From positions 1 through 34,012 of the forward strand of contig WGEZ01000132.1 in the NCBI GenBank assembly GCA_015492515.1: a stretch of DNA of 34,012 nucleotides. The letters run 5' to 3'. Position 1 is the stretch's first letter. Every line of letters begins with the position of its first letter. The notes below the pieces were generated by a model. The model had not been told where the DNA came from, ran no database searches, and saw nothing but the letters and a program-made list of their open reading frames with translations. The translations under genes were made by a program, and so were the position numbers. Source of the DNA: Nitrospirota bacterium. Lineage in GTDB: Bacteria; Nitrospirota; Thermodesulfovibrionia; Thermodesulfovibrionales; JdFR-85. This document shows positions 5,779-11,166 of this stretch, piece after piece.

Positions 5779-6231
5779 TCACCCCTGTATGTTCACCGCA
5801 TCCAACCGATCGAGGGCGACCAGTCTCCTCCCCTCTCCGATCCTCTCCCTGCACTCATCAATCCACCTGTTTATATCCTTCACCTTGAAGGGCTTCTTTA
5901 TAATACTGCAGCCCAGCCCCTGGGCCTTCTTCACATCCCGCATCGTCAGCTCCGAGGATATCACCGCCGTGCACCCGGCCATCCCCCTGCAGCCCTTCTT
6001 CATCCGGTCTTCGATGAACTCCAGACCCGTCATCCCCGGCATATAATGGTCGGTGATCAGGATGTCCGCACAGACGTGATCCTCGGGGCACGGACACGTC
6101 CCGTCCAGGATCTCGATGAGTGGAAGCGGCCCCGGAAAGGACCGCACCTCGTAGCCACGCTTCTGCAGGATTATGGTGAGCAGGGAACGTATCCTCTCAT
6201 CGTCTTCGATAACCACCGCTCTTGTCCTCAT
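5779..6231 (-). CDS. Response regulator receiver with cysteine-rich insertion
   Basis: This is a 150-residue single receiver domain. It has the acidic pair in VVIEDDERI, the phosphoacceptor Asp61 in ILITDHYMPGMTG and the conserved Lys in IIKKPFKVKD. Just before the phosphoacceptor strand is an insertion, DGTCPCPEDHVCAD, with three cysteines. Three more cysteines follow (GCRGMAGC and LGCS), which is unusual for a cytoplasmic CheY-like protein and could support metal or redox sensing; that is inference. There is no output domain. The start ATG has GGGGGAGG three bases upstream. It converges with gspB, leaving 13 bases between the stops. Confidence 0.9.
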   Translation of the reverse strand: MRTRAVVIEDDERIRSLLTIILQKRGYEVRSFPGPLPLIEILDGTCPCPEDHVCADILITDHYMPGMTGLEFIEDRMKKGCRGMAGCTAVISSELTMRDVKKAQGLGCSIIKKPFKVKDINRWIDECRERIGEGRRLVALDRLDAVNIQG

Positions 6232-6318: not shown

Positions 6319-6837
6319 TCAAGGACGTCCGGCCGCCTCGCAGCCGAGCATATCCAGATGCCTCACGTCCTCGACCCGCTCTATCCCGCCGTCCTTCCTC
6401 CGGTAGATCACCCGCTCGATCTGGGCGTTGACGATCATCCTCCGGCAGAGCAGACACGGACGGGACTCTGCATATGCACCCCCCTCCTCAAAGCCTGCTA
6501 TATAGATGGTAGCCCCCTTCATCCTCTCCGGCGGGGCATTGACGATCGCGTTCTGCTCCGCATGGACCGCCACACAGAGCTCGTACCGCTCACCTGAAGG
6601 GACGTTCAGCTCCTTCCTCCTGCACACCCCTCTCTCTATACAGTTCGCCGCCCCCCTCGGTGAGCCGTTGTAACCGGTGCTCACGATCACCCTGTCCTTG
6701 ACGATGACGGCACCGTAACGCCGCCTGAGACAGGTCGACCTCGAGGAGACGACCCTCGCTATCTCGAGGAAGTACTCATCCCAGGACGGCCGCCGCCGCG
6801 GGCCGCCGCCTCCGTTGCCACCGTCACCCCTCTCCAT
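6319..6837 (-). CDS. comEB: Deoxycytidylate (dCMP) deaminase family protein
   Basis: This 172-residue zinc-dependent deaminase probably converts dCMP to dUMP, the route to dTMP. The catalytic motif HAEQNAI supplies the zinc-binding His and proton-shuttling Glu, and PCLLC supplies the two zinc Cys. The family N-terminal block WDEYFLEIARVVSSRSTC and the nucleotide-binding loop GYNGSPRGAANC are present. A short Gly-rich leader (GDGGNGGGG) precedes the domain. I chose ATG 6837 because AGGGAGGTGAGGGGC lies directly upstream; another ATG eight codons earlier lacks a site. It follows the B12-dependent ribonucleotide reductase on the same strand, so both supply deoxynucleotides. A TATAAA at 6862-6867 could also drive it alone. 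Confidence 0.9.
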   Translation of the reverse strand: MERGDGGNGGGGPRRRPSWDEYFLEIARVVSSRSTCLRRRYGAVIVKDRVIVSTGYNGSPRGAANCIERGVCRRKELNVPSGERYELCVAVHAEQNAIVNAPPERMKGATIYIAGFEEGGAYAESRPCLLCRRMIVNAQIERVIYRRKDGGIERVEDVRHLDMLGCEAAGRP

Positions 6838-6885
6838 GCCCCTCACCTCCCTTCGCCTCATTTTATACCCGGGGCTACGGCCTGA

Positions 6886-9108
6886 TCAGCACCTCGTATG
6901 GCCGCAGTTCCGGCATATGGCGCAGCCGCCCTCGTGCTCCACCGGACCGCCGCACTCCGGGCAGGCTCCGATCCGCATCACCACGTCGACCTTGCCGCTT
7001 CCGCCGTTTCCGCCGCCCTTGGTCATGTACAGCTCCAGCGCCTTGGCGATTGCATCGGCGCAGGAGGAGATCTTGCCCGTGCTCGACCAGGCGTGCTGGT
7101 GGCAGGATATGCCCTTCAGGTGTGCGATGATCTCCTCAGGCGCTATGTTCGAGCGGAGGGCCAGGGAGACGAGCCTCCCGATGGCCTCTGACTGGCTCGC
7201 GGCACAGCCGCCCGCCTTCCCGATGTGGTTGAAGACCTCGAAGGGGAGCCCCTGTTCGTCCTCGTTCACGGTGACGTAGAGGTTGCCGCAGCCCGTCTTT
7301 ATGGCCCTCGTTGTACCCTTTATCACCTCGGGCCTCTTCCTCGGGACGATCTTCCTGAACTCCTCCTCTTCCCGTCCTTCGGCAGCCCCCTCCTGCCCCT
7401 TGCTGAGCACCTGGCTCTCCCTTGAGCCGTCCCTGTACACGGTGACCCCCTTGCAGCCGAGCCTGTAGGCGAGGCGGTAGACCTTCTTCACGTCCTCCAC
7501 CGTGGCGTGGCGCGGAAAGTTCACGGTCTTTGAGACCGCGTTGTCCACATGCCTCTGAAAGGCGGCCTGCATACGGATGTGGTCCTCGGGGGATATGTCG
7601 TGGGCGGTGACGAAGATCTCCTTCACGTCGTCTGGTATATCGGGGATGTCATGGACGGAGCCCGTCTCCGAGATCCTCTCCATCAGCTCCCTGGAGAAGA
7701 ACCCCCTCTCCCTGGCCACCTTCTCGAAGTAGGGGTTCACCTCGAAGAGCCTGGTCCCCTCCATGACGGTCCTGACGAAGCAGACGGCGAAGATCGGCTC
7801 TATGCCGGAGGAGCATCCCGCGATGATGCTCAGGCTCCCGGTGGGTGCAATGGTGCTGATCGTTGCGTTCCGGACCCTCACGCCGCCTGCATAGATGCTT
7901 TTGTCGTGATTCGGGAAAACACCCCTCTCCTCGGCAAGCCTCTCCGAGGCCTTCCTCCCCTCGGAGGTTATGAAACCCATCACCTCCTCGGCCAGCCTGA
8001 GGGCCGCCTCTGAGTTGTAAGGGATGCCGAGCTGGATCAGCATATCGGCCCACCCCATCACGCCGAGGCCTATCTTCCTGTTGGCCCTGGTCATCTCCTC
8101 GATCCTCTCAAGGGGGTATCGGTTGACGTCGATCACGTTGTCCAGGAAGTGGACCGCCCTGTGCGTGATCTCCCTCAGGAGCTCCCAGTCCACCCCGCCT
8201 CCCCGGACCATCCTGGCGAGGTTTATGGAGCCGAGGTTGCACGACTCGTAAGGGAGCAGGGGTTGCTCGCCGCAGGGGTTGGTGCTCTCTATATCGCCCA
8301 GCTGGGGCGTGGGGTTGGTCTGGTTGATCCTGTCGAGGAAGACGATGCCCGGCTCGCCGTTTCCCCAGGCGTGCTTGACGATCAGGTCGAAGACGTCGGC
8401 CGCCCTCAGCCTCCTCACCACCCGACCGGTCCTGGGGTTTACAAGCTCGTACTCCCCGTCCTCCTCCAGCCTCTTCATGAACTCCTCGGTCAGTATGACG
8501 GAGATGTTGAAGTTGGTGAACCTGTCGTTGTCGTCCTTGCAGGTGATGAACTCGATTATATCCGGATGGTCAACGCGTAACATCCCCATGTTCGCCCCCC
8601 TACGGGTGCCTCCCTGCTTCACGGCCTCTGTGGCGGTGTCGAAGACGGTCATGAAAGAGACAGGCCCTGAGGAGATCCCCTTCGTCGATCCCACGACGTC
8701 ACCCTTGGGCCTGAGGCGGGAGAAGCTGAACCCCGTGCCTCCGCCGGATTTATGTATGATTGCGGCGTTCTTGACTGCATCGAATATGCTCTCCATGGAG
8801 TCCTCCACGGGGATCACGAAGCAGGCCGAGAGCTGACCGAGCCTCCTGCCTGCATTCATCAGGGTGGGGCTGTTGGGCAGGAAGTAAAGGGAGGTCATCA
8901 TCCGGTAGAACCCCTCCTCCACCTCAGCCACCTCCTCAGGCCTGTAGCCATAGCCGAGATCAGCCCGCGCTACCGACCGCGCCACCCTCCTGAACATCTC
9001 CTCAGGCGTCTCGACGACCCTCCCCTCTTCGTCCTTCCTCAGATACCTCCTCTGGAGGACCTTCAATGCATTCTCAGTAAGGTCGAGCCCCTGACTCAAA
9101 ACCCCCAT
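6886..9108 (-). CDS. nrdJ: Adenosylcobalamin-dependent (class II) ribonucleoside-diphosphate reductase
   Basis: This 740-residue enzyme makes deoxyribonucleotides from ribonucleotides with adenosylcobalamin as radical source, so it works with or without oxygen. The active-site motif [20 protein letters not shown] carries the Asn-Cys-Glu catalytic set. The N-terminal redox Cys lies in [10 protein letters not shown] and the substrate loop in [20 protein letters not shown] and [18 protein letters not shown] are also conserved. The C-terminus has a zinc-ribbon-like cysteine cluster (CPECGG...[12 protein letters not shown]) typical of NrdJ. I prefer ATG 9108 because GGGAGG is seven bases upstream; a GTG two codons earlier is too close to it. 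In the 292 bases upstream (9109-9400) I see no cobalamin riboswitch or NrdR-box pair. No class I or III reductase is in the window. Confidence 0.97.
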
Positions 9109-9400
9109 ATTCACACCTCCCGTTCAAGTGTCTTGTTCACTGCACAGATCCGTTAACCGCTGTTACGGGCAGCACGACCGGGTCTTCGGTCAACTCACAC
9201 CCGCACCTGGAGCGGGCCCCGGGGTGAATATTACGCGGGATTCAGAACCCCTCAGACCCGACCGTTCTGCCGTCTTCGTCGACATCCCTTATCGCCGCTT
9301 TGGGGACTACATTGACTGCTCGATGAGATGACCGTCCCGTCATCCGCGATGCCGCCGCTGCCGACCACTCCGTCCGCTGAGAACGACGGGAAAGGGCCCC

Positions 9401-9562
9401 CTACGCCTTCCGGCCCTCATCCGTCACCCCCCTCTCCAGACCCCTCATCTCTGACAGGAACCTGCCGAAGGCGTCCTCAGACTCGATGGGACAGCTCTTC
9501 GTGCAGAGATAGGGGCACCTGAGACAGTTGAACCAATCAATCAGCCCTTTACAGGAATCCAT
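9401..9562 (-). CDS. Cys-rich 53-residue small protein
   Basis: I do not recognise this short gene, but the evidence for it is good. The 53-residue product starts MDSCKGLIDWFNCLRCPYLC and has six cysteines in its first 24 residues, in a C-x8-C-x2-C-x3-C-x3-C arrangement after the Cys at position 4. The rest is a charged helix (EDAFGRFLSEMRGLERG). The clustering suggests a small iron-sulfur or zinc site. It has a GGGTGGGGA ribosome site next to the ATG and a consensus sigma70 promoter (9604-9632) about 40 bases upstream. It is divergent from another small gene at 9772, whose product also has a Cys pair. It could instead be a redox or metal-binding accessory of nrdJ, which lies downstream on the same strand. 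Confidence 0.7.
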   Translation of the reverse strand: MDSCKGLIDWFNCLRCPYLCTKSCPIESEDAFGRFLSEMRGLERGVTDEGRKA

Positions 9563-9603
9563 TCCCCACCCTACAGGTTGTGCTCATGATTGATATTTCG
9601 ACA

Positions 9604-9632
9604 ATCATACCACAAGATGTTGTCTTTGTCAA
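9604..9632 (-). promoter_or_regulatory. Consensus sigma70-type promoter for the 53-residue gene
   Basis: Read on the minus strand, TTGACA (9632-9627) is followed after exactly 17 bases by TATGAT (9609-9604). This is the best canonical promoter in the window. Transcription should begin near 9597 and reach the ATG at 9562 after about 35 bases. Nothing else lies directly downstream, so it strongly supports that small gene. It may also read on into nrdJ. Confidence 0.82.
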
Positions 9633-9758
9633 GGGAAAAATGCATATCTCGCTATGTGGTTGTTTCAAAAGCCTTTTTCCTGTGAAATGGCTGTTGGCGA
9701 GGTGTTCAAAAGATCTCCTCCCCTCCCTCCCGTGCTGCTCCGTCCGGGTCCAATCGGG

Positions 9759-9764
9759 TATAAT
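9759..9764 (+). promoter_or_regulatory. TATAAT -10 box positioned for a leaderless transcript
   Basis: TATAAT ends eight bases before the ATG at 9772. Sigma70 transcription starts about seven bases after the -10, so the predicted first base is 9771 or 9772, at the start codon itself. No clear -35 is seen at 16-18 bases. No purine-rich ribosome site exists before the ATG. Confidence 0.62.
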
Positions 9765-9771
9765 ATATTTG

Positions 9772-9969
9772 ATGATCGAGACCATAGATGCAGAGACGAC
9801 GCTTGAGACCCTGTTCAAGGAATACCCCGAGGTGACCGATTATCTCCTCTCTCTCGGGATCTGCGAGTGTGACGGCCTCTATCTCCGGAAGACCGTTGCA
9901 GAGGTGGCCGAGGACAGGGGCATGGATGTGGGCGAGCTCCTCCGTCAGATCAAGAGGCGTATAGAGTAG
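9772..9969 (+). CDS. DUF1858-like small helical protein
   Basis: This 65-residue protein resembles the DUF1858/ScdA-N type helical domain. It has a helix (TLETLFKEYPEVTDYLLSLG), then a Cys turn GICECDGLYL, then a helix pair ending GMDVGELLRQIKRRIE. Such domains are often found with redox or hybrid-cluster proteins and carry a Cys pair that may form a disulfide or bind metal; here the pair is C-E-C. The ATG at 9772 is the first sensible start: upstream residues in the same frame are unlike a protein, and the TATAAT box sits just upstream. It seems monocistronic, with a 57-base inverted-repeat structure 21 bases after the stop. Confidence 0.8.
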   Translation: MIETIDAETTLETLFKEYPEVTDYLLSLGICECDGLYLRKTVAEVAEDRGMDVGELLRQIKRRIE

Positions 9970-9990
9970 TCCGCCCCGGCGGCCTCGCAT

Positions 9991-10047
9991 CCGCTCCCTG
10001 TGCATGGGGATGGCAGAGGGGGCGATATGCGGTGCCCCAGGGAGCGG
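9991..10047. terminator. Long perfect-stem hairpin between convergent genes
   Basis: CCGCTCCCTG (9991-10000) is exactly repeated in reverse complement as CAGGGAGCGG (10038-10047) with 37 bases between. The interior offers more pairing, such as GGGGC with GCCCC and GCAT with ATGC. It lies between the convergent small gene (stop 9969) and dtd (stop 10071). There is no T-run, so it may be a symmetric transcription stop, an mRNA end stabiliser or a small structured RNA. Confidence 0.5.
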
Positions 10048-10070
10048 TCCTTGACATCTCTGTTCAGGAG

Positions 10071-10514
10071 CTACCCCCTTGAGTCGATCATGAGCGTGAC
10101 AGGGCCGTCGTTGGTGAGGCGGACCTGCATCCGCTCTCCGAAGACACCCCTCTTCACCCTCAGCCCCGTCCCTTCGAGGCCCCTGACGAAGGCCTCGAAC
10201 ATCGCCTCCGCCCTCTCCGGTGATTCAGCGTCGTCAAAGGATGGACGGTTCCCCTTCCGGACCCTTGCGGCAAGGGTGAACTGGGGGACAACGAGGACCT
10301 CTCCGCCTGCATCGGCCACGGAGAGGTTCATCCTCCCCGCCGGGTCATCGAAGACCCTCAAGCCGGAGACCTTCCTCACCACATACTCAACGTCTTCCGT
10401 GCCGTCACCCTTCAGGACACAGAGGAATACCAGGAGGCCCCTCTCTATCTCTCCCCTGACCACACCGCCTGCCTCAACGCTGGCTCCCGAGACCCTCTGG
10501 ATCAGCGCCCTCAT
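10071..10514 (-). CDS. dtd: D-aminoacyl-tRNA deacylase
   Basis: This 147-residue enzyme hydrolyses D-aminoacyl-tRNAs and glycine mischarged on tRNA-Ala, keeping D-residues out of proteins. It matches the family in length and motifs. It starts MRALIQRVSGASVE, has the catalytic-Thr strand VVPQFTLAARVRKG, and ends in the cross-subunit loop LTNDGPVTLMIDSRG, which carries the Gly-Pro-like NDGPVT motif. The usual SQFTL is PQFTL here. ATG 10514 matches the family N-terminus; an ATG two codons upstream is equally free of a clear ribosome site. The start lies 13 bases after the metallopeptidase stop, so the two are probably co-transcribed from 11357-11386. Confidence 0.95.
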   Translation of the reverse strand: MRALIQRVSGASVEAGGVVRGEIERGLLVFLCVLKGDGTEDVEYVVRKVSGLRVFDDPAGRMNLSVADAGGEVLVVPQFTLAARVRKGNRPSFDDAESPERAEAMFEAFVRGLEGTGLRVKRGVFGERMQVRLTNDGPVTLMIDSRG

Positions 10515-10527
10515 CCGCATTCGGGGC

Positions 10528-11166
10528 TCAGCCGAGCCGCTTCTCCCACTGTACCGCCCGGCTGTAGTGCCTGAACTCCCTCTCCCGCCTCTTGAACTCC
10601 CTTGTATGTATGGCGAGCCTGCCGTTCTTCCTCCGTCTGATACCCATATCGGCGTGCAGCATCTCGTGATACACCACATACTCCAGGAAGTACCTCGGCA
10701 CCCTGGCGCTGTCGAGCAGGGGGTTTATCCTTATGGTCCCGGTGTCGGCGTTGTAGCTGCCGAGGGTCCTCTTCCTCACCGCCTTTCTCGGGGAACGTTT
10801 CCCCCAGGTGATGACGGCGTCGATCCTGCCCGAGAAGTACTCCCTGTTCAGCCTCTCGAAGACCCTCTGGAGGTTGTAGACCCTCCCTGCCGGCTCTATC
10901 CTGTCGTACAAACGGGCCCTCTTCCTTATCCTCCACTGATTCCTCCTGATGAATTCGTTGATCCGGGGTGTCCTTATCGAGGGCCTCTTGATCAGCTCGG
11001 CCAGTTCCATGACCACATCCAGGGGGGCCTCGGTGAAGAGGCGCTGTATCCTCAGCACCACCCTGCCCTTCTGTTTCTTGAAACTGACGACGTTGGTCCT
11101 GTTGTCCGTCAGGATGATCTCCACCGGTCTCGATACAGCCCTCTCCAAAACCCTCTTGAGATTCAT
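10528..11166 (-). CDS. SprT-like zinc metallopeptidase
   Basis: This 212-residue protein has the zincin motif HEMLH in VVYHEMLHADMG, inside a SprT-like fold: NREYFSGRIDAVITWGKR is followed by the strand TLGSYNADTGTIRINPLLD. These features match the SprT/YgjP-type metallopeptidase-like families, which include DNA-protein-crosslink proteases, but the bacterial function is largely unknown. The N-terminal 90 residues are basic and contain RTNVVSFKKQKGRVVLRIQR. I chose ATG 11166, with GTGAGGAGGGC just upstream; the open frame upstream is not protein-like. A promoter is predicted at 11357-11386, which leaves a leader of about 185 bases containing a GGTGG/CCACC hairpin near 11195. Confidence 0.85.
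   Translation of the reverse strand: MNLKRVLERAVSRPVEIILTDNRTNVVSFKKQKGRVVLRIQRLFTEAPLDVVMELAELIKRPSIRTPRINEFIRRNQWRIRKRARLYDRIEPAGRVYNLQRVFERLNREYFSGRIDAVITWGKRSPRKAVRKRTLGSYNADTGTIRINPLLDSARVPRYFLEYVVYHEMLHADMGIRRRKNGRLAIHTREFKRREREFRHYSRAVQWEKRLG

Follow-up and report, generated by a model that had tools for sequence, protein, structure and literature searches.

The locus

In the window, i.e. the whole stretch of 34,012 nucleotides analysed, the minus-strand ORF 9562..9401 starts with ATG, counts 53 codons and encodes a Cys-rich small protein of pattern C4-x8-C13-x2-C16-x3-C20-x3-C24-P. The preliminary description had delimited this frame correctly, and the good ribosome site that it proposed corresponds to the G-rich stretch GGGTGGGGA ahead of the ATG; it had however announced six Cys in the first 24 residues, where we count five (C4, C13, C16, C20 and C24). 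Homologues and marks of selection back this ORF, which is almost certainly a real gene.

Upstream on the same strand, the promoter scan detected a -35 hexamer TTGACA (9627..9632) and a -10 hexamer TATGAT (9604..9609), 17 nt apart and preceded by TG at the -10. With 11 of 12 consensus bases, this site (9632..9604) scores highest among the 9 promoter-like sites found in the whole window—shuffles expect about 2.8-2.9 per part—and deserves its earlier qualification as the best promoter present. The strong promoter was thus rightly pointed out, but its NrdR-type operators had been overlooked, as had the constant partner of the small gene, nrdJ, lying downstream. A first NrdR-box-like palindrome, CCACAAGATGTTGTCT (9610..9625), sits between the -35 and the -10 and scores 12/16 against ACACwATATATwGTGT, which we take to be the NrdR box consensus; a second NrdR-box-like site, ACCCTACAGGTTGTGC (9568..9583), scores 11/16 at 42 bp from the first.

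The box of the window is rather weak, its score of 12/16 being reached by 4 of 100 shuffles. Over the family, a NrdR-like box of at least 12/16 is found in 43 of 47 upstream regions, versus 2.4 expected from shuffles (L029, with 25 nt of upstream sequence, was left out), and in 45 of 47 after two start corrections; the two regions devoid of a box belong to small-gene copies away from nrdJ. Nearly all relatives have TTGAC at 7 nt ahead of the box. As for the second site, it is weak and variably spaced: 41-42 bp in 22 of 43 cases, 31-32 bp in 7 of 43. The genome of the window also possesses a nrdR gene (G000:C116:8355-8795, E 1.7e-59, above cut-off).

The gene nrdJ (6886..9114, minus strand) encodes a class II, B12-dependent, ribonucleotide reductase (RNR) of 742 aa (NF006417, 1218.9 bits for a cut-off of 961), whose true start may be the in-frame ATG at 9108, behind GGGAGG. 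It is followed on the same strand by a ComEB/dCMP-deaminase-like gene (6319..6861; TIGR02571, 75 bits, below the cut-off of 219), a gene of the same cluster being found downstream of nrdJ in 13 of 26 loci, then by a response-regulator receiver-like gene (5779..6231, all matches below cut-offs), possibly the last of the run. The small gene and nrdJ are separated in the window by a gap of 286 nt, which does not significantly resemble the long gaps that two relatives have; no terminator-like site was detected in 8400-10600, and a search for known RNAs or riboswitches gave no Rfam match in the window. We infer that both genes are probably carried by one transcript, and propose for the operon the order small gene, nrdJ, dCMP-deaminase-like gene, the small gene coming first.

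Among the genomes that do not carry the small gene, 26 of 37 have a NrdR box within 250 nt of nrdJ, which argues that the promoter belongs to nrdJ and that the small gene is placed inside that operon. The position of the small gene within a nrdJ operon behind a NrdR promoter is thus very likely, and control by NrdR is predicted. Being the first gene of a NrdR-box operon, rich in Cys and lost without loss of nrdJ, the small gene might also encode a regulator that senses redox state or metals and controls dNTP synthesis through NrdR, the promoter or the activity of NrdJ. However, the boxes of the non-carriers indicate a switch independent of the small gene, and the window protein has no DNA-binding family hit, so that we consider such a regulator quite unlikely.

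The divergent gene deserves a word, since a redox or metal role shared with the small gene had been suggested from its Cys pair. It does exist (9772..9969, plus strand, 65 aa with CEC, DUF1858/prismane_assoc-like below both curated cut-offs), but of the 26 loci examined, only 3 show such a gene in divergent orientation next to the small gene. This lack of conservation leaves the shared role unsupported, and we rejected it.

Linkage to nrdJ

According to tblastn, 44 of the 48 loci have a same-strand nrdJ downstream of the small gene; L144, a locus cut short, adds a 45th, its coordinates placing nrdJ next to the small gene. Two contigs, those of L034 and L129, stop within about 310 nt of the small gene, and in L136 nrdJ is absent among the ORFs of the 6129-nt contig. 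The spacing between the two genes goes from -19 to 305 nt, with the single exception of 760 nt in G122. In this genome an ORF that looks antitoxin-like by eye (L133:336-620) stands between the degenerate small gene and nrdJ.

Two intact copies, in G118 and G126, are orphans: neither nrdJ on the stretch examined nor a NrdR box accompanies them, and their surroundings look like glycan or secondary-product clusters; in G118, nrdJ is on another contig. One orphan copy (L059:431-601) is followed by a second Cys-rich ORF of 60 residues (L059:669-851, plus strand) with no Pfam hit, then by ORFs that resemble, by eye, asparagine synthase, carrier protein and AMP ligase. In G021 a diverged paralogue of pattern W-x2-C-x2-C-x7-CP is unlinked to nrdJ (L121:807-1010, minus strand; G021:C1:1421845-1421946), and the nrdJ-linked copy of the same genome has lost C20.

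The orphans and the paralogue of G021 are what one would expect if the small gene were an unrelated passenger, merely co-expressed with nrdJ while functioning elsewhere. Against this stand the 45 of 48 copies placed upstream of nrdJ across many genera, which make a passenger improbable. The two intact copies away from nrdJ indicate that the small protein can probably act in trans.

Distribution and conservation of the family

The tblastn check for homologous frames was positive: 26 of 61 relatives carry one, including 15 of 17 within the window's own family. A profile search then found 48 carriers among 176 genomes belonging to the same order as the window. In a sample of the phylum, 27 of 295 genomes possess a homologue, all 27 in the window's order, and none was found outside it in this sample. 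An exact motif scan of genome contigs retrieved 32 matching stretches, with titles referring to Nitrospirae/Nitrospirota, Thermodesulfovibrio(nales) and Nitrospira(ceae), and one to Nitrospinota; the matches with names are Thermodesulfovibrionales/Nitrospirota MAGs. A phage, plasmid or defence origin was looked for in viral contigs (by motif), phages, plasmids, PHROGs and PADLOC, and rejected for lack of any match.

C4 and C16 are invariant in the family (48/48 copies), C13 and C24 are kept in 47 and C20 in 44, the latter being missing in family f6; W10 is kept in 47. The conserved spacing of Cys anticipated by the preliminary description is therefore found, with all five intact in 43 of the 48 copies, each of them being encoded by both TGT and TGC across copies. 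Low dN/dS ratios are found as well. Of 22 pairs tested, saturation affected 8; another 3, of nearly identical sequences, gave omega values of 0.61-1.09 from few changes; in the 11 informative pairs omega is invariably low (0.18-0.58), which denotes purifying selection. The selection operates at the amino-acid level and includes W10, P25 and E27; the Cys/W/P core of the protein is under selection. Altogether these comparisons identify the small gene as a conserved protein-coding gene between a predicted NrdR-box promoter and nrdJ, and they support the view, already expressed, of a genuine short gene plausibly redox- or metal-related.

A short, Cys-rich frame ahead of nrdJ evokes a leader peptide, or an upstream ORF tuning the translation of nrdJ, for instance according to cysteine supply. 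We rejected this candidate, which appears highly improbable: the distance to nrdJ is too variable, the selection bears on amino acids other than Cys as well as on the conserved Cys, and intact copies exist away from nrdJ.

Frame-breaking changes in relatives, which were to weigh against the gene, do occur, but in a minority only: the copy of G017 is truncated, those of G122 and G149 are altered, and G140 has kept an apparent frame-broken remnant. Such decayed copies could recall a chance ORF; nevertheless the homologous frames in more than a quarter of the order, the omega values, the conservation of Cys and the linkage to nrdJ refute it, and its probability is negligible. As most copies remain intact, we interpret the decay as repeated loss, not as the sign of a false gene.

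While nrdJ is present in 168 of the 176 genomes of the order, the small gene is present in 48, which implies that NrdJ works without it. In a NrdJ tree of 45 sequences, the 25 carriers require 7 changes, at least 5 of them on well-supported branches. This fits an old gene with many losses, as the decayed copies also support, the alternative being independent gains. Repeated loss and the two intact copies away from nrdJ indicate that the small gene is dispensable.

The RNR partner

The C-terminal part of NrdJ combines a TSCPD domain (PF12637; 7024..7308, minus strand) and a six-Cys zinc-finger tail of pattern C-x2-C-x9-C-x2-C-x2-C-x4-C (6889..6963, minus strand), recognized from the sequence and by comparison with the tail portrayed in PMC5704485. 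For long class II C-termini, PMC9669993 mentions an IscU-like domain of unknown role together with a zinc finger; we infer that the TSCPD domain is probably this IscU-like domain. For the Stackebrandtia enzyme, PMC5704485 describes such a tail as relaying electrons and holding Zn; there, the tested thioredoxins and glutaredoxin were not donors, and the search for a native reductant, made in a single organism, had no success.

The four TSCPD Cys and the six tail Cys are kept in all 45 NrdJ sequences, in 25 of 25 carriers and in 20 of 20 non-carriers of the small gene. There is thus no co-variation between the Cys sites of NrdJ and the small gene. In the same comparison of 25 carriers with 20 non-carriers, the NrdJ columns that best separate the two groups look largely like a signal of family f1, and we set them aside.

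These results are relevant for another possible function, in which the small protein would load metal on the C-terminal domain of NrdJ, or serve its oligomerisation or stability, without electron transfer. The same linkage to nrdJ, and the encounter of a small Cys protein with an enzyme bearing a Zn finger and a TSCPD domain, agree with this function; the cysteine-rich domain is also described, in PMC5704485, as aggregation-prone and driving oligomers in the enzymes studied. But the Cys sites of NrdJ are kept equally where the small gene is absent, and we regard this function as unlikely.

The genome of the window yields no match to PF00268 (class I small subunit) nor to NrdD; it encodes two NrdJ, and shows class II RNRs only. 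The second NrdJ (L178, G000:C32:4528-6237) counts about 570 residues, is 61% identical and is without the cysteine-rich tail; no NrdR box of at least 12/16 was found in the stretch examined for it. The class III RNR, NrdD, was found in the order in only 21 genomes out of 176, with no tie to the small gene evident by eye.

The small protein

The small-protein family is named in none of the libraries searched, among them Pfam, NCBIfam, PHROGs and PADLOC, and we found no mention of a small gene before nrdJ in the open-licence literature searched. The nearest signal comes from Fer4_10, matched weakly by 11 of 26 members (best E 0.0032-0.0036) because of the C-x2-C-x3-C-x3-CP stretch. The window protein obtains 15.9 bits with this model, below the cut-off of 25.5, and reaches the curated cut-off of none of the Fer4 models. 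For this protein AlphaFold2 produced a weak all-helical model (pLDDT 67; helices at 7-15 and 31-49); a PDB fold search with this model gave no match (one hit, E 9.8, was disregarded), and a sequence search of solved structures gave two peptide hits, E about 1, also disregarded. No redoxin family of Pfam or NCBIfam was hit, nor was the TSCPD domain. That the small protein could be a fragment of the NrdJ domain was rejected, hhalign giving a probability of 0.3% versus NrdJ tails.

Discussion

The small gene thus belongs to a family unnamed in the libraries searched and tied to class II RNR. That its product is an accessory of NrdJ is reasonably likely from the comparisons of sequence presented here, and this accessory would most likely be small and carry a metal or dithiol. 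The weak Fer4_10 signal, the Cys tail of NrdJ, the Stackebrandtia precedent and the RNR set of the genome together lead us to prefer an accessory based on a metal or a dithiol, which would feed or protect the NrdJ tail. Our best explanation overall, which we hold tentatively, is therefore that the small gene, first of a nrdJ operon behind a NrdR promoter, encodes a metal/thiol helper acting in trans on NrdJ, an electron relay being its likeliest form.

For such a helper we propose the following mechanism. The small protein would be helical, with C4, C13, C16, C24 and possibly C20 holding a [4Fe-4S] or Zn centre, or acting as redox-active thiols. Acting in trans on NrdJ, its likeliest job would be to provide electrons to the cysteine-rich C-terminal domain, or to keep it reduced, and this domain would in turn re-reduce the active-site disulfide. 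The many relatives that lost the gene indicate a protein helpful but not obligatory. As regards the electron relay in particular, we would put it at somewhat less than an even chance; that the small protein is a dedicated Fe-S (or dithiol) electron donor for class II RNRs with a cysteine-rich C-terminal domain appears doubtful.

If true nevertheless, a dedicated donor would be a natural reductant so far missing for these enzymes, in one bacterial order at least. Ribonucleotide reduction is an essential process, for which the genome of the window shows only class II RNRs; a conserved Cys-rich protein encoded upstream of nrdJ, and predicted to be co-regulated with it, offers a concrete candidate for the missing electron donor. 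It would also represent a lineage-restricted RNR accessory.

Several known systems can be compared with this one. The 4Fe-4S ferredoxin-type domains (Pfam Fer4_10, Fer4_8 and Fer4_20) have the spacing CxxCxxCxxxCP; the small protein shares with them the CxxC...CxxxCP pattern, hence weak hits, but reads CxxCxxxCxxxCP and adds C4 and W10 on its N-terminal side. NrdH, thioredoxin and glutaredoxin are the partners of class I RNR, and they too provide the example of a small CxxC protein encoded with a RNR; the pair C13-x2-C16 would be its equivalent here, in a protein that differs by its 53 aa, its five Cys, the lack of redoxin family hits and its class II partner. NrdJb, or the cysteine-rich domain of class II RNR, as presented in PMC5704485 and PMC9669993, is likewise Cys-rich and tied to NrdJ; the small protein has however no profile similarity with it, and the NrdJ considered here already has its own domain. 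Finally, the NrdR regulon of RNR operons, as presented in PMC9110341, displays the same palindromic boxes over the promoter, with NrdR in the genome; the boxes are separated there by about three helix turns, whereas here the distance is mostly 42 bp, that is four turns.
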